Made by a program: the position numbers and the translations under genes | IMG/VR virus record: IMGVR_UViG_3300050821_001506 | Span: 1 to 29,893 of that record | Strand: one strand, 5' to 3' | DNA: 29,893 bases | Source of the DNA: a virus | Notes under the pieces: model-generated | Seen by the model: only the letters and a program-made list of their open reading frames with translations | What the model was told of the DNA's origin: nothing | The model's database searches: none | Shown here: positions 2,395 to 22,075 of the stretch, in pieces | Numbering within the stretch: the stretch's first letter is position 1 | How the letters are laid out: each line of letters starts with the position of its first letter

Positions 2395-2613
2395 TCACTG
2401 TGTGGCAAGGAAACTCTCCGTCTCTTGGATCAGAGTGTCAAAGTGGTTCTTGCCATGGAAGGCCATCATCTCTTCACTGGCTTCCCAGTCTATGATGATC
2501 TGCAATCCCATGGAGGGCGTCTTCCCCGCATGGCGAGGAACCTCGAAGCGTTCCTCGCAAACCTGGCACTCAAGCACAGGAAACTGCGGATATCCATCAT
2601 CCTGACTTACCAT
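2395..2613 (-). CDS. Hypothetical protein between terminase and portal
   Basis: A 72-residue protein whose ATG (2613-2611) lies inside the last codons of the terminase gene (overlap ATGGTAA). An AGGAGG sits about 12 nt upstream. Residues 16-19 form a C-x2-C pair (CQVC), and two histidines follow at about residues 27 and 53, so a small metal site is conceivable. The rest is mixed alpha/beta without a membrane segment. It ends about 40 nt before the portal start. Its position, sandwiched between terminase and portal, suggests a packaging or head-assembly accessory, but I do not recognise the family. Confidence 0.7.
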   Translation of the reverse strand: MVSQDDGYPQFPVLECQVCEERFEVPRHAGKTPSMGLQIIIDWEASEEMMAFHGKNHFDTLIQETESFLATQ

Positions 2614-4553
2614 CCCGGATCGGCCTCCTGATACTGTGCGGGGGTTGGGTGATTACCATAGACAGACCAGTCAGGCTCGATAGAGCCAAGAGAGGGCACC
2701 AAGGTCCTAGCAGCCCAGTCATCAATGTCTACAGTGAACATCTGCTCTTGCTGCATCTGAGTACGGTACTTGTCAATACCCCAGTGGGTAAGGATACCAC
2801 CCTCATTCATCAGTTCGCGGCATCGGATCTCAGCGAACCACAGGGCCATCACAATATCCGTCTTGCCCTTAGTCTCAGGGTGCCAGGTGATCAGCTGTTC
2901 TCGAAGAGCCTGAATTCCTGCATGGTTCTTAGAGGAAGGGAGATCGATGAGATTGCGCCCATCTTCGTATCCCTCGAACAGTGCAGCCATTGAGGCCACA
3001 CCAAAATCCGCATCCCATTTATTACCGTGGGTGAAGTGAGGTTGTACAACAACACCTCTCGAACGGAGAAAGTCGAGAAGGCCTTCATCTTGTGTGAGCC
3101 ACGCCTGAACATTGTTCTTCTCAATCCTCCACTCTTGTACGCCGTACTCTAAGGTCCATGCCTTGATCGTGGAGATGATCTGGTTGTAGTTTAGACTGGC
3201 CTGGTTGAATACGTCCAAGAGGAAACGTCTACCTGACTGGCGGTCCAGTCCGAGTGCAACCGCAGCAGTATTTCCGGCGGCAGCTGGGTCAAGGCCACAC
3301 ACAACCGTGAGTCCGTGCATTCCCGCAGGACGTAGAGGGCTTGGTGCCAATGGCCCAGGCCTACGAGTGCCAGAGCAACCGTTGACGGCTGCTGGGGTGA
3401 AGATGGCATCTCCGGCTACCTGCTCCTGCTGGTAGACCATAGACCAGTTCCGAGGAGACATGCCACGGCGCTTACGTGATAGCTGAGCTCCTCCCCACTT
3501 GGGAAAGAGTCCATCGTGGTCAGGTTCCAAGTTCTCAAAACTCTTACCGCGAGGACGTTGGTTGCTGCGCGGCCAGAGAGTAACCCAGGTGGCAGGGTCA
3601 GCATCGGGCATCTCCAATACGGCAGGTTGGCTTAGGTAAGTCCAAGGGACTTCTTCTCCATCATAGTACTGGGGCTTGACAAGCTCTCCGTACAAGTCCT
3701 GCGTAGCAAGACGTGTCCCCACAACCAGGATCTTACCGTCGTCTGCATCGATTCGGGACTGCAAGATATTCTGGATCCAGTCGATCTGGTTCTCGAAGTC
3801 ATGGGCGTTCGAATGATCAACCACGTCGTCGAGGATGATGAGGTCAGCACGAGCACCATAGATTTTCTTTCCGATACCCAGAGCCTGAACCGTAGGGTCT
3901 TTCTCACCGGTAGTCTCCTCATCTTCGGCCTGGTTGACATAGATCATGTCATTGCGCCAGATGGCGTTACCACCATCGAAACCTTCAACAGGAGCGAAGT
4001 CGTGCTTCAGCTCTCGGAAGGCACGAGTGGAGTCCAGGCGCATCTTGATACCGTACAAGAACTTGTTGGCATTAGTGGCGTTGGACGATACGATGAGAAT
4101 CTTGATGTCGGGATTCTGCACGATTCGCCAAGTTACATAGTTCATGGTGATGGTGGTAGACTTGGCGAAGCCAGGAGGAGTGTTGATGACTAAATGCTGG
4201 GGCGAAGCACCCTTCTCCCAACGCTGTGTGTAATGAAGCTTGGAAGGCTCTCGGCCTTCCAGCACATCGATCCACTGCTGCTGGTGCCAAAAGACTTTGG
4301 CACCGAGATACTTCTCAGAGAACTCTTCAAACCTAGGCACGCCCTTGCGTGCCTGTGCAACAACACCAGTATTCCTGAACTCGCGGATGTGATCCATCCG
4401 CTCCTTGAACTCTAGATCAGTACGACGGTAGTACTCATACGACTTCGGCGATATGCCGATGTCGTTACAGATGTCCTTGATAGTTCGCCCCTTGGCGAAC
4501 AACTCGATAATCTTTGCTTTCTTTGCCGAACTAGGAATGTCCCGCTCGCCCAT
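2607..4553 (-). CDS. terL: Terminase large subunit (packaging ATPase and nuclease)
   Basis: A 648-residue motor protein that pumps DNA into the prohead and cuts concatemers. The N-terminal 60 residues contain a helix-turn-helix-like segment (KGRTIKDICNDIGISPKS), which may substitute for or contact the small subunit, since no separate terS is visible. The Walker A-like motif is NTPPGFAKST (about 124-133), Walker B is LIILDDVV (about 238-245), and the coupling motif VVGTR follows at about 277. The RNase H-like nuclease domain begins with VVCGLDPAAAGN, with Asp422 as the first catalytic acidic residue. Length and domain order match a complete terminase. It is the first gene of the leftward late operon, and the large non-coding region upstream presumably carries its promoter. 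The ribosome binding site is weak. Confidence 0.95.
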   Translation of the reverse strand: MGERDIPSSAKKAKIIELFAKGRTIKDICNDIGISPKSYEYYRRTDLEFKERMDHIREFRNTGVVAQARKGVPRFEEFSEKYLGAKVFWHQQQWIDVLEGREPSKLHYTQRWEKGASPQHLVINTPPGFAKSTTITMNYVTWRIVQNPDIKILIVSSNATNANKFLYGIKMRLDSTRAFRELKHDFAPVEGFDGGNAIWRNDMIYVNQAEDEETTGEKDPTVQALGIGKKIYGARADLIILDDVVDHSNAHDFENQIDWIQNILQSRIDADDGKILVVGTRLATQDLYGELVKPQYYDGEEVPWTYLSQPAVLEMPDADPATWVTLWPRSNQRPRGKSFENLEPDHDGLFPKWGGAQLSRKRRGMSPRNWSMVYQQEQVAGDAIFTPAAVNGCSGTRRPGPLAPSPLRPAGMHGLTVVCGLDPAAAGNTAAVALGLDRQSGRRFLLDVFNQASLNYNQIISTIKAWTLEYGVQEWRIEKNNVQAWLTQDEGLLDFLRSRGVVVQPHFTHGNKWDADFGVASMAALFEGYEDGRNLIDLPSSKNHAGIQALREQLITWHPETKGKTDIVMALWFAEIRCRELMNEGGILTHWGIDKYRTQMQQEQMFTVDIDDWAARTLVPSLGSIEPDWSVYGNHPTPAQYQEADPGW

Positions 4554-4593
4554 GCTCGCCGTCCATCCGTTCGGCTAGAAAAAGTTTATCCTT

Positions 4594-4985
4594 TACTATC
4601 CCTCACTCGTTCGAGGTTCTGATCAACTCGGCCTAGCCGAGTTCCTCTCACTCGTTCGGGATAGTATCGTATTAGGCGGCCACCCTAGGGGCCGCCATAC
4701 TACTATATCCTTCGGCCTAGCCGAAGGTATTTAACTACTACTCACTGGCCTAGAGCCAGTGTTACTGTCGCGAGCCTTTTAGGGTCGGCTCGCTTATAAG
4801 GTCAAAAGATACTATGGCGACGGTAGGCCGTTTCTAGCGGCCTCCGTCTATATTGTTACCAAACTGTTACTGTATATTACTCTCCGTGGACGAAGTCCAC
4901 GAGGTTGGTATACAGAGCGTAGTGGAGTACTAGATCGCCTAATTGTACTTTAGCCGCGAGTTTTAGAGTGTATTACGTACTCGCG
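4594..4985. repeat. Array of nine or more GC-rich hairpins, many with CTAG/TTAG at the tip
   Basis: Perfect or near-perfect inverted repeats follow one another: 4625-4632/4636-4643 (AACTCGGC, loop CTA); 4675-4681/4690-4696 (GGCGGCC, tip CCTAGG); 4709-4716/4720-4727 (CCTTCGGC, loop CTA); 4743-4749/4755-4761 (CACTGGC, loop CTAGA); 4770-4776/4787-4793 (GCGAGCC, loop with TTTTAG); 4819-4830/4838-4848 (11 bp with one bulge, loop TTTCTAG); 4885-4891/4895-4901 (CGTGGAC, loop GAA), itself enclosed by CTGTATA/TATACAG (4870-4876/4909-4915); and 4955-4961/4979-4985 (CGCGAGT). The first is enclosed by a 9-bp stem, 4594-4602/4658-4666. Linkers are AT-rich. Stem sequences differ from one another, so this is a structural rather than a sequence repeat. 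Confidence 0.85.
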
Positions 4986-4989
4986 ATGC

Positions 4990-5110
4990 GCAACAATTTA
5001 AAACCCTGGGGTCAAACATATCAATTCTGATCGAATTCATCGTCAATTCAATTGCAATACACAGCTGTAACGTAATTAATTATAGTGTATATAACTATCA
5101 ACTCATCGAC
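4990..5110. other. AT-rich block, candidate duplex-unwinding or promoter region
   Basis: About 120 bp are markedly richer in A+T than the rest of the window, with runs such as CAATTTAAAA and TAATTAATTATAG and a TATAAT match on the minus strand at 5084-5079 that lacks a good -35 partner. Its position between the hairpin array and the palindrome cluster fits a DNA-unwinding element or the core of divergent promoters. Neither is demonstrated. Confidence 0.4.
5018..5046 (-). promoter_or_regulatory. Weak candidate promoter for the leftward packaging operon
   Basis: On the minus strand TTGACG (5046-5041) is followed after 17 nt by TGATAT (5023-5018), a poor -10. The spacer contains the dyad ATTC-GATCA-GAAT, similar in design to the three better promoters in this window. 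Transcription from here would read through the hairpin array before reaching the terminase gene, giving a leader of about 450 nt. Confidence 0.3.
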
Positions 5111-5397: not shown

Positions 5398-5426
5398 TTG
5401 ACGACTGCTCGCCGAGCGAGGATAGT
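5398..5426 (+). promoter_or_regulatory. Candidate early rightward promoter with a dyad in the spacer
   Basis: TTGACG (5398-5403), a 17-nt spacer, then GATAGT (5421-5426). The spacer holds the inverted repeat CTCGC-CGA-GCGAG (5408-5420). It points at the early operon whose first gene starts near 5747, so the transcript would have a leader of over 300 nt containing the tRNA-like fold. Spacing and -35 are good; the -10 is an imperfect match. Confidence 0.55.
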
Positions 5427-9507: not shown

Positions 9508-9515
9508 TACAAAGA

Positions 9516-9545
9516 AGCCCTCCACACCAAATGGTGTGGAGGGCT
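9516..9545. terminator. Bidirectional intrinsic terminator
   Basis: AGCCCTCCACACC (9516-9528) pairs over 13 bp with GGTGTGGAGGGCT (9533-9545) around AAAT, flanked by U-rich tracts in both directions. It separates the rightward early operon from the convergent leftward replication operon and probably stops both. Confidence 0.9.
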
Positions 9546-9553
9546 TTCTTGTT

Positions 9554-10156
9554 TCAGGGGACTTGCGGACGTTCGCCACCGAGGTGGCGTTGCACCTTCC
9601 GTACAACTCGGCCTAGCCGACTGTCAATGGCACTGACCGAGAGGCCTCGTTCCTCGGCCATCTCAGCCGCTGTGAGCCCTTCGTAGTAGTGCTCCCGTAG
9701 GAGACGCTGGTCTTCCAGTGACAGGAGCTTCACAGCCCCGCTCACGTCCGCCAGGGTGGTCACGTAGTTGTTACCCTCACTGATGGAGCGTGACTTCACC
9801 CGAGTCTGCTCAACTGGCGTAGGCGGACTGGTCCAAGCTTCCTCATCCCAGATGAGAGCCAGCACGTCTCTAATGAGTCCCAGCTCATAGTAGTAGTTGT
9901 CCTCTGGCCGATAGCCCAGGATGCGAGCCTTCTCAGCTTGACAGAACCGGATGCCACAGTTGCGCATAGCCTTCAAGAGCTTGTTGCGGCCGTGCTCTGT
10001 GCCATCCTGGTATTCGTCTACCTTCTCTGGCTTGGAATACACCCACACCCAGATCTCTTGGAGGATGTCATCTCGTTCCACCATGGGGTATGACTTCCGA
10101 AGGTAGTTGGCTATGTGAGCAGCATTCGCTGCGATATCAATGCCATCTTCATCCAT
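9554..10156 (-). CDS. Sigma factor-like DNA-binding protein (last gene of the replication operon)
   Basis: A 200-residue protein starting at ATG 10156, coupled to the upstream gene as TGATG with GGGAGGG before it. The N-terminal segment (about 15-75) resembles sigma region 2: a helical core with DDILQEIWVWVYSKP. The C-terminal 55 residues are a region 4 helix-turn-helix: LSLEDQRLLREHYYEGL, then TAAEMAEERGLSVSAIDSRL. Length suits a small sigma-70 family protein. It is the last gene before the terminator, so it would accumulate late within this operon and may direct host RNA polymerase to late promoters. A plain DNA-binding regulator is the alternative. Confidence 0.7.
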   Translation of the reverse strand: MDEDGIDIAANAAHIANYLRKSYPMVERDDILQEIWVWVYSKPEKVDEYQDGTEHGRNKLLKAMRNCGIRFCQAEKARILGYRPEDNYYYELGLIRDVLALIWDEEAWTSPPTPVEQTRVKSRSISEGNNYVTTLADVSGAVKLLSLEDQRLLREHYYEGLTAAEMAEERGLSVSAIDSRLGRVVRKVQRHLGGERPQVP

Positions 10157-15570: not shown

Positions 15571-16444
15571 TCAACACCTTCTCGATGGTATATAGATGGG
15601 CGTCTTCGCCACCAAAGGCGGCACAGCCAGCATTCACAGGACAATAGTTACACAGGGCCGACTTATGAGGGAGGAATATCTTGTTCTCTACTGCTCTCTT
15701 GAACTGCACACCCAATTGACCAATACTGTCAACTGTATAGTCGTCCAAGTCGTACATCTGGCTAATGCGATTCTGTCGGAGATTGTAGAACGCCCCATAC
15801 TTCGGGCGTTCACCATACTGCACTTCCATGCCAACTGCGTACAGGCCAAGCTGTAGATCTGAGTCTGGCATTCTACTACCAGTCTTCAGATCAATCACAA
15901 CGAGGTCCTGGCCATCGGCCGAATAGAACACTCGGTCAATAGAACCGCGCGCTTTCCAGTCTGCGATTTCAAACTCAAGCGCGAGCTCAATACCAGGTGA
16001 ATACTCAACCTCACCAGTGGAAGGATCAAAGCCAGATACCGCATCCTGCCAGAGCTCCATGGGAGATGAAGTCCGCCAGTCGATGTAGTTCTGAACAAAC
16101 TTCGGGCCAAGGTCCATCCATGCGAGGTAGTCCTCACCATCGGGATTCGCCTTCTTCTTGCCCGCAGTCTGCCACTTTGAAACATCCGTAAACCTGGTTT
16201 TCTGTGCTTCAACCTCTCGGTTGAAGATATCAGACCATAATTGGTCTAGACCACTTTCTTGGAATTTTTCCGGCGACCTGTCGTACAGCTCCGTCAATTC
16301 ATGCACAGCGGAACCACCAACGAACCACCAACTTGGCAGCTCCGGCACATGAGCGATCTTCTCAAGGAAGTACCGCTTACCACACTGCATGTAGCTCGAT
16401 AACGAACTATAACTGAAGTGTGGCGGAACGATGTTCTTAGACAC
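15563..16444 (-). CDS. Cas4/RecB-like PD-(D/E)XK exonuclease with Fe-S type cysteines
   Basis: A 293-residue nuclease. Cys21 lies in YMQCGKRYF (the N-terminal LSSYMQC-x3-YF start typical of the family), His48 in GSAVHEL, then GSIDRVFY (Asp170) and LVVIDLKTG (Asp185, Lys187), QLGLYA and a C-terminal CNYCPVNAGC (Cys265, Cys268, Cys274). Together with Cys21 these are the four cysteines that hold a 4Fe-4S cluster in Cas4/AddB-like nucleases. No CRISPR array or other cas gene is present, so it is a phage recombination/replication exonuclease rather than an adaptation module. It starts at GTG 16444, overlapping the sigma-like gene's stop. Confident family assignment. Confidence 0.9.
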   Translation of the reverse strand: MSKNIVPPHFSYSSLSSYMQCGKRYFLEKIAHVPELPSWWFVGGSAVHELTELYDRSPEKFQESGLDQLWSDIFNREVEAQKTRFTDVSKWQTAGKKKANPDGEDYLAWMDLGPKFVQNYIDWRTSSPMELWQDAVSGFDPSTGEVEYSPGIELALEFEIADWKARGSIDRVFYSADGQDLVVIDLKTGSRMPDSDLQLGLYAVGMEVQYGERPKYGAFYNLRQNRISQMYDLDDYTVDSIGQLGVQFKRAVENKIFLPHKSALCNYCPVNAGCAAFGGEDAHLYTIEKVLNG

Positions 16445-17048
16445 TCTGTGCCACCTTACGCTTGGGCTTCATCTCATCGCGTAGCTTCCTCATGCCCGCT
16501 GAGCGGGCTAGTGAAACCTGAGTCCGAGAGATGCCTAGGACGCAGGCGCTCTCAGCCACGCTGAGCTCTTCGTAGAACTGGTGGGTCAGGACCGTACGCT
16601 GAAGCTCTGGGAGGCGCTCCATGGCCTCTCTGAGAGCCACCTCGCGCTTGTTGGGGAGCGTTGCCATGTATGCATCTTCGGCAGAAGGCACGGTCTGCAT
16701 GATCCTTTCGTCAACGAGCATGCGATCATCATCCTCTTCATCTGTCTGGAAGAGACCCGCCAGGTTCGTGAGAGACTCTCCACGGGCCTGAGGAGACTGA
16801 GGCCTCTTGTCTCCATTATGATACCCCATTTTGCGCATGGCAACCGTGCGGGCGTTAAGCCGCACGCCACCAAGGAAGTACAGGTTGGGATCCCTTGACG
16901 CAGGAGCGTCCTTGTGGTACCGTAGGACACGGACGAGGGTGTCTTGCCAGATGTCCTCCCAGTCACGGTTGGGAATGTGCCACTTCTTGGCTTCACGGAA
17001 GGCTAGGCGACGAGCCTGCCTCCAGTTCCTTCGCAGTAGTTGCTCCAT
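16437..17048 (-). CDS. Sigma-70 family factor, first gene of the replication operon
   Basis: A 203-residue RNA polymerase sigma-like protein. Region 2 runs from about 5 to 70 (REAKKWHIPNRDWEDIWQDT, then LVRVLRYHKD), followed by an acidic linker (TDEEDDDRML). Region 4 is near the C-terminus: LPELQRTVLTHQFYEELS, then a helix-turn-helix VAESACVLGISRTQVSLARS and a basic end (KPKRK). The size fits a group 4-like factor. It is preceded by a near-consensus promoter whose -10 ends 6 nt before the ATG, so the mRNA would be leaderless. It may activate middle or late promoters, including the identical promoter facing the other way. Confidence 0.8.
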   Translation of the reverse strand: MEQLLRRNWRQARRLAFREAKKWHIPNRDWEDIWQDTLVRVLRYHKDAPASRDPNLYFLGGVRLNARTVAMRKMGYHNGDKRPQSPQARGESLTNLAGLFQTDEEDDDRMLVDERIMQTVPSAEDAYMATLPNKREVALREAMERLPELQRTVLTHQFYEELSVAESACVLGISRTQVSLARSAGMRKLRDEMKPKRKVAQSV

Positions 17049-17054
17049 GCTCTA

Positions 17055-17083
17055 ACCATAGCACGAGCAGGGGCTCGTGTCAA
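17055..17083 (-). promoter_or_regulatory. Leftward promoter, leaderless, with a dyad in the spacer
   Basis: On the minus strand TTGACA (17083-17078), a 17-nt spacer and TATGGT (17060-17055). The -10 ends 6 nt before the ATG of the sigma-like gene, so transcription should begin at or next to that ATG. The spacer is almost filled by CACGAGC/GCTCGTG (17062-17068 and 17073-17079, loop 4 nt). Hexamers are identical to those of the rightward promoter at 17430. Confidence 0.8.
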
Positions 17084-17429
17084 GTAGGTTTGAACCTGGA
17101 TCGGATGTGGTATCAACTCACATGCGGAACTAACCGTGGGCACCCGATGGGTGGGGCGAGAGTCCAGCAGCGACCTCAGTTGGATGACTTGAGGTGCTTG
17201 TCTACTTCACTGACCAGGGAGTATGTCTCTGACCTGGGATTTGAGGTAGGGAGCACTATTTCCTAGTTGGATCTTATAACCCGCACTGTGGTGCGGGGGA
17301 TGTTTACCCGTCCAAAGGACGGGGGATGTACCTGTCGTGCCGAGCCTGCGAACCGTACCGGTTCGTGAGCTAGGAGTCACATTGTGACTCCCGCCCAAGC
17401 GAGGCAGTAAAGAATCTTGATCCTAGGAC
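17084..17429. other. Gene-free region between divergent promoters, with a hairpin cluster
   Basis: About 345 bp lie between the two promoters and should not be transcribed by either. Four hairpins occupy 17280-17391: CCCGCAC/GTGCGGG (17280-17286, 17291-17297), CCCGTCC-AAA-GGACGGG (17307-17323), CGAACCG-TAC-CGGTTCG (17349-17365) and GGAGTCAC-ATT-GTGACTCC (17373-17391). The first two are followed by the same tail, GGATGT, making a direct repeat. The stretch 17084-17279 shows no gene or clear structure. Possible roles are operator DNA, an origin element or a separate small RNA. Confidence 0.7.
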
Positions 17430-17458
17430 TTGACAAGCCGCGCTAGCGGCGGTATGGT
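17430..17458 (+). promoter_or_regulatory. Rightward promoter, leaderless, with a dyad in the spacer
   Basis: TTGACA (17430-17435), a 17-nt spacer, then TATGGT (17453-17458). Six nt separate the -10 from ATG 17465, so the transcript should begin at the start codon. The spacer contains GCCGC-GCTA-GCGGC (17437-17450). It drives the second rightward operon, which carries the tRNA-like gene and DNA polymerase. Confidence 0.8.
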
Positions 17459-17464
17459 GGAGGT

Positions 17465-17590
17465 ATGAACTACTACTTGATCCGCCTGACTCGGCCAGGG
17501 AGCCGAGTCCATACCATCTTCGTGCCAAAGGCACGATACAGTGAGATCGTTGAAGAATACCGAATCCTTGGTTGGGATGTGTCGGAATGA
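17465..17590 (+). CDS. Hypothetical 41-residue protein, first gene of rightward operon II
   Basis: An ATG exactly 6 nt after the -10 hexamer opens a frame of 41 codons whose stop overlaps the next start (ATGA). A GGAGG lies just before the ATG but would hardly be transcribed if initiation is at the ATG. The product begins MNYYLIRLTRPGSRV and has an alternating hydrophobic pattern followed by a helix (YSEIVEEYRILGW). It has the form of a small beta-beta-alpha protein. Function unknown; position makes it one of the first proteins made from this promoter. Confidence 0.65.
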   Translation: MNYYLIRLTRPGSRVHTIFVPKARYSEIVEEYRILGWDVSE

Positions 17591-22046: not shown

Positions 22047-22075
22047 AGCCCCTCTCGTCATTGACGAGAGGGGCT
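22047..22075. terminator. Bidirectional intrinsic terminator
   Basis: AGCCCCTCTCGTC (22047-22059) pairs over 13 bp with GACGAGAGGGGCT (22063-22075) around ATT, followed by TCTTTG on the plus strand and TTCTTGTTT on the minus strand. It closes both the rightward polymerase operon and the leftward tail/lysis operon. Its design closely mirrors the terminator at 9516-9545 (13-bp stem with AGCCC/GGGCT ends). Confidence 0.9.

Follow-up and report, generated by a model that had tools for sequence, protein, structure and literature searches.

Phages of three groups carry an array of short hairpins upstream of terL that may form part of a structured late-operon leader

The put element of phage HK022 consists of two hairpins of conserved sequence within an antitermination RNA, and 5'-terminal stem-loops of the ompA type stabilise bacterial mRNAs. 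For stems that act as DNA, the hairpin promoters of phage N4 and the processing of T7 concatemers offer analogues. Among larger molecules, GOLLD and ROOL are phage-associated RNAs. Together with OLE they are described, in the available part of the source, as large and strongly structured bacterial RNAs (PMC12286853).

The locus compared here with these systems lies upstream of the terminase large subunit gene terL in the window, the whole stretch of viral DNA that was analysed (29,893 nucleotides; IMG/VR record IMGVR_UViG_3300050821_001506). Its array of nine stems (4594–4985), read on the minus strand in the sense of terL, occupies an intergenic region with leftward late genes on one side and rightward genes from 5729 on the other. 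As in put, the hairpins would lie in a nascent leader where a long phage operon begins; unlike put, the array has several hairpins whose sequence changes freely. The likeness to ompA-type stem-loops lies in a first stem that, in the freshwater relatives described below, is a few nucleotides from the predicted start site, and in shape counting over sequence, whereas the array has many stems and a branched domain beside a Shine-Dalgarno-like sequence. Perfect short stems, 3-nt loops and placement in a control region recall the N4 promoters, but these are specific in stem sequence and polymerase and evidence of neither was seen here. The array is large and strongly structured like GOLLD, ROOL and OLE but, set against the available part of that description, has no Rfam match, has fewer conserved cores and continues into a coding gene (PMC12286853). 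It shares with the cabRNA of staphylococcal phages a structured RNA at the terminase locus, although cabRNA, in the part of the source available, derives from the terminase subunit genes and the array lies upstream of terL (PMC10686824).

Six perfect stems of at least 7 bp are present in the region 4554–4990, against a mean of 0.20 and a maximum of 2 in 300 first-order shuffles, and CTAG or TTAG occupies the tip of six hairpins (those beginning at 4625, 4675, 4709, 4743, 4770 and 4825). The earlier note had reported at least nine stems, six or more with these tips, in a region that is neither coding nor a CRISPR; both counts were reproduced, the region holds no coding sequence, and its short direct repeats occur in two copies only. 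A CRISPR array, with identical and regularly spaced repeats, was rejected on the same grounds, as were a tRNA array and an array of U-tract terminators, given that no tRNA and no intrinsic terminator (stem plus U tract) was found in the region. A search with 4,227 Rfam models, including known phage RNAs, returned chance miRNA matches only, far below gathering scores, and the open-access literature on terminase-leader RNAs held no description of the element, so that its novelty is provisional. The stems were confirmed, but they do not form the single uniform array first described: the array is a composite, with an outer part (4819–4985) and a putative leader part (4586–4793) on either side of a TATA-like box (Table 1). 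Nor is it unique in the genome, as a second region (17049–17571) is equally rich in hairpins.

Table 1. Features of the control region upstream of terL, listed from its outer edge towards the gene.
Feature	Position	Strand	Stem	Remarks
Conserved element TTTGACCCCAGGGTTTTAAA	4997–5016	−		about 40 bp inside terminal-repeat end in Streptomyces relatives
Outermost stem CGCGAGT/ACTCGCG	4955–4985 (4955–4961/4979–4985)	−	7 bp	includes predicted genome end near 4977/4978
Conserved block AAACTCGCGGCTAAAGTACAAT	4942–4963	−		core kept in 7/7 clade members
Hairpin CGTGGAC-TTC-GTCCACG (terL sense)	4885–4901	−	7 bp, perfect	upstream of TATA-like box
GTAA-type direct repeat, period about 11	4850–4870	−		GTAAAG..GGTAAAG in relatives
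Interrupted dyad GACGGaGGCCG..CGGCCTaCCGTC	4819–4848	−		stops a few bp short of TATA-like box
Hairpin within the dyad	4825–4843		6 bp, perfect	inner part of interrupted stem 4819–4848
TATA-like late promoter candidate CCATAGTATCTTTTGACC	4800–4817	−		from position and similarity to freshwater CCTAATAGTATA and Streptomyces GACGGGTATATATATAATGGGG
First putative leader hairpin	4770–4793	−	7 bp, perfect	10-nt loop
Putative leader hairpin, CTAG tip	4743–4761	−	7 bp, perfect	
Putative leader hairpin, TAG triloop	4709–4727	−	8 bp, perfect	
Penultimate hairpin GGCGGCC-CCTAGGGT-GGCCGCC	4675–4696	−	7 bp, perfect	counterpart in all clade members
Branched 3' domain	4595–4665	−		P1 and inner hairpin
Long-range stem P1, ACTATCCC/GGGATAGT	4595–4602/4658–4665		8 bp	surrounds hairpin 4625–4643
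Inner hairpin	4625–4643		8 bp, perfect	within P1
Shine-Dalgarno-like AAAGGATAA	4586–4594	−		conserved; abuts P1
terL	2607–4553	−		phrog_38, E 6.7e-70; leads leftward late operon

On balance, the array is likely to control the leftward late operon and to include a structured 5' leader RNA, a reading favoured by the position and order of the stems and the conserved Shine-Dalgarno-like end. That operon would begin with terminase and portal, followed by the structural genes, in a virus of the actinophage type with terminal repeats. From the outer edge inward, the region would comprise the terminal-repeat genome end, activator-like repeats with a dyad, and a TATA-like late promoter near 4806–4817; the GTAA-type repeat is a possible activator site. 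The promoter is proposed from sequence, and its −35 region shows no match to the sigma-70 consensus; two sigma-factor-like phage genes on the minus strand (9554–10156 and 16437–17048) encode proteins that could serve it. Most of the hairpins probably belong to the beginning of the late-gene mRNA, in a leader of about 200 nt where several short hairpins precede a branched domain; this domain, in which GAACGAGTGAG is duplicated with one copy on each side, abuts AAAGGATAA before terL. The hairpins would function through their shape, at the 5' end of a long late mRNA, most likely in mRNA protection and presentation of the ribosome site, or alternatively through modification of RNA polymerase. The near-absence of GU pairs implies that departures from Watson-Crick pairing are eliminated, whether through selection or through template-switch repair as the DNA replicates. 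Of the four options raised at the outset, a terminase mRNA with a long structured leader fits best, for 4594–4793.

The outer edge was compared with the Streptomyces phages WRightOn and Percastrophe, each of which has a direct terminal repeat of 264 bp. In both, the repeat ends at GAGTG, right behind the element and just past GACCC..TTGTTAA. By alignment at the junction of GAGTG and AGTCCC, the genome end of the window virus is predicted near 4977/4978; the aligned site is the repeat end in the two relatives, and no repeats stand at the ends of the window record. A packaging signal, another of the proposed functions, may apply to the edge at 4955–5016, which aligns with the Streptomyces repeat end. 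The proposal of a replication origin found no support in the GC skew, whose extremes fall near 9.5 and 16.5 kb and not at 4.6–5.0 kb.

A terL search of viral contigs yielded seven distinct upstream regions, window included (W, L001, L002/L006, L003, L004/L005, L007 and L010), with terL 80–89% identical. Arrays are found at the same place in all seven, with differing stem sequences. For P1, an alignment-free comparison was used that paired every 5' window with every 3' window, within and between phages. The stems formed by a phage's own pair measured 8, 11, 9, 11, 6, 10 and 11 bp, against a cross-pair mean of 4.4, and the sum over own pairs (66) was reached by the identity permutation only, of 5,040. 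When the 3' domain was aligned by sequence alone with MAFFT, covariation was 0.353 against 0.182 in shuffled data (0/500 shuffles); the number of paired cells was likewise matched in 0/500, and the pair statistics also exceeded all slid versions. The penultimate hairpin (helix 1) had 93.9% of cells paired in the clade alignment. Between the close pair L003 and L004, paired substitutions occur in two of the putative leader hairpins while the 16-nt linker between them, GGGTAGAATACAATAG, is identical; linkers and the P1 sequence are conserved. Searches with the exact pattern AAACTCGCGGMTAAA gave 100 matches, mostly chance, of which known relatives alone passed the context filter, and those with AGTAGTACTAGGTAAA gave chance matches besides known relatives. 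In three of the regions (L001, L004/L005 and L007), an ORF resembling an HNH endonuclease by eye lies between the array and terL, and in L004 it begins just past a AAAGGATAA-like sequence. A further contig, L009 (44,251 bases), has an assembly break within terL, and the array and adjacent terminus region are missing from it.

The element TTTGACCCCAGGGTTTTAAA alone retrieved distant relatives with the same terL-side position, namely a freshwater clade and the group L228/L330–L331. 'Freshwater' serves as a working label, chosen from the general appearance of the contigs and not from sampling-site records; 598 loci were found and 80 kept. The freshwater layout, a simpler version of the array, runs from the element through a dyad (TGTCC..GGACA), the TATA-like CCTAATAGTATA, two hairpins, P1, AAAGGATAA and a further hairpin to terL, and the dyad, GTGTCC..GGACAC, is the counterpart at the same place of that at 4819–4848. 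The first hairpin, with a 7-bp arm and usually a 12-nt loop, begins 1–5 nt past the TATA motif, and a short-loop hairpin then precedes P1 (CCTAACC/GGTTAGG). For two helices in an alignment of 46 freshwater sequences, 143 cells were changed on both sides and 0 on a single side, a result seen in 0/500 shuffles. Pairing conserved through compensatory changes, as expected of a structured leader, was therefore found: the earlier claim that structure is conserved while sequence diverges is borne out by P1, the 3' domain and the freshwater clade, the stems being present in relatives and their changes compensatory. Nine isolated Streptomyces phages carry the element, a conserved TATA box GGTATATATATAAT (in variant form in Percastrophe) and hairpins tipped with CTAAA or CTCAA before terL. 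In the seven window-clade members, the freshwater clade and these nine isolates alike, the array is directly upstream of terL on the same strand, a layout common to three phage groups. Between the 5' hairpin and P1, the freshwater clade has a single hairpin and the window at least three; the hairpins retain their order, position and loop sizes across clades while stem sequences change.

Covariance models reached less far. Beyond the window clade from which it was built, model R1 at first gave nothing significant apart from marginal matches; it later matched the equivalent site ahead of terL in the distant L331 (E 0.005) and, weakly, freshwater L258 and L250 (E 0.11 and 0.52), where E-values, like the p-values given below, partly ignore the relatedness of the sequences. 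The 3' domain model did not find the Streptomyces phages, and homology across groups thus rests on position and short motifs. Upstream of terL in L228, L330 and L331, CGAACG(A/T)AGTGAG flanks the inner hairpin on both sides, matching the arrangement in the window. In Streptomyces relatives (L029, L031 and L371–L377) a conserved stretch upstream of terL, CTCGGGATCATTCCTCCG, could, as read by eye, code for LGIIPP, a short leader peptide. The public contig L226 ends at its 3' end in Illumina adapter sequence.

Changes of the kind C-G to U-A ordinarily go by way of GU. Of the Watson-Crick and GU pairs counted in a per-hairpin search, which favours Watson-Crick pairs, GU made up 1 of about 996 in the putative leader hairpins of the freshwater clade (about 0.1%) and 7 of 299 in the window clade (about 2%); for comparison, a set of 27 distinct tRNAs taken from these contigs had 45 of 571 (7.9%). 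Helices 1 and 4 of the alignment-based freshwater count likewise had zero GU. GU is thus not used here as in RNA stems, for which such use is usual but not strictly required. Given that GU showed no excess over AC mismatches, both being equally rare, the pairing gives no pointer to the transcribed strand. The near-absence of GU fits strict Watson-Crick selection, a function at the DNA level, or template-switch repair.

A DNA-level function, in which the stems would act as hairpins or cruciforms by the terminus in repeat duplication, packaging or promoter opening, is consistent with the equal scarcity of GU and AC and with an array adjoining the predicted terminus, but appears unlikely: the majority of stems stand between the TATA box and terL, in a fixed order down to the Shine-Dalgarno-like sequence, and the second hairpin-rich region is far from the terminus. 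Loop-closing C-G outnumbered G-C by 128 to 13 in the putative leader hairpins, against 82 to 55 in hairpins of the terL coding sequence, a bias that suggests the hairpins really fold; it is symmetric between strands, and C-G closing pairs would suit DNA hairpins too. Loop composition (first C 63 versus last G 34 in terL sense, p 0.004, with related sequences not independent) weakly favours the sense of terL. The motif C(C)TNARG is over-represented at the tips (42/333 versus 9/477, p 1e-9). YUNAR tips as an RNA-specific loop were rejected, since the class is its own reverse complement and hence blind to strand.

Template switching during replication is argued, for RNA genes, to make perfect stems together with multibase compensatory changes (PMC8794818). 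That the hairpins are largely its by-product, with no function for each, is improbable, even though double changes without GU intermediates, G-C to C-G flips included, are its expected trace and other intergenic regions are also rich in hairpins. Against it stand the order, position and loop sizes kept across clades as stems change, the conserved linkers and P1 sequence, and the enriched tips, although template switching and selection could act together. Least probable is a standalone noncoding RNA, GOLLD/ROOL-like or cabRNA-like, in place of a leader: a strongly paired region of about 400 nt beside the terminase and without an Rfam match would suit it, as would the structured RNA from terminase genes reported, in the available part of the source, for staphylococcal phages (PMC10686824), but no terminator follows the domain, structure continues into the Shine-Dalgarno-like sequence, and the number of hairpins from the 5' hairpin to P1 varies (one versus three or more).

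If the leader is real, a control element of the late operon that has not been described before is common to one phage lineage, among whose members are cultured Streptomyces phages. A broader proposal, tentative and rather doubtful, is a modular hairpin leader in a large terminal-repeat phage lineage, with hairpin number and sequence free but exact Watson-Crick pairing enforced, through a DNA function or through template switching that rewrites both arms. Compensated pairs without GU intermediates offer a good natural test of two-sided stem change, an open question (PMC8794818).

Elsewhere in the window, the region 17049–17571, which lies upstream of a leftward operon led by a sigma factor, contains seven short perfect hairpins and forms another divergent control region; it shows by eye a promoter-like TTGACA-N17-TATGGT with a palindromic spacer. 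A promoter-like TTGACG-N17-GATAGT for the rightward genes (5398–5426, plus strand), also present in relatives, likewise has a palindrome in its spacer. Perfect hairpins of 13–14 bp between convergent genes, at 9515–9546 and 22047–22075, are probably bidirectional terminators.
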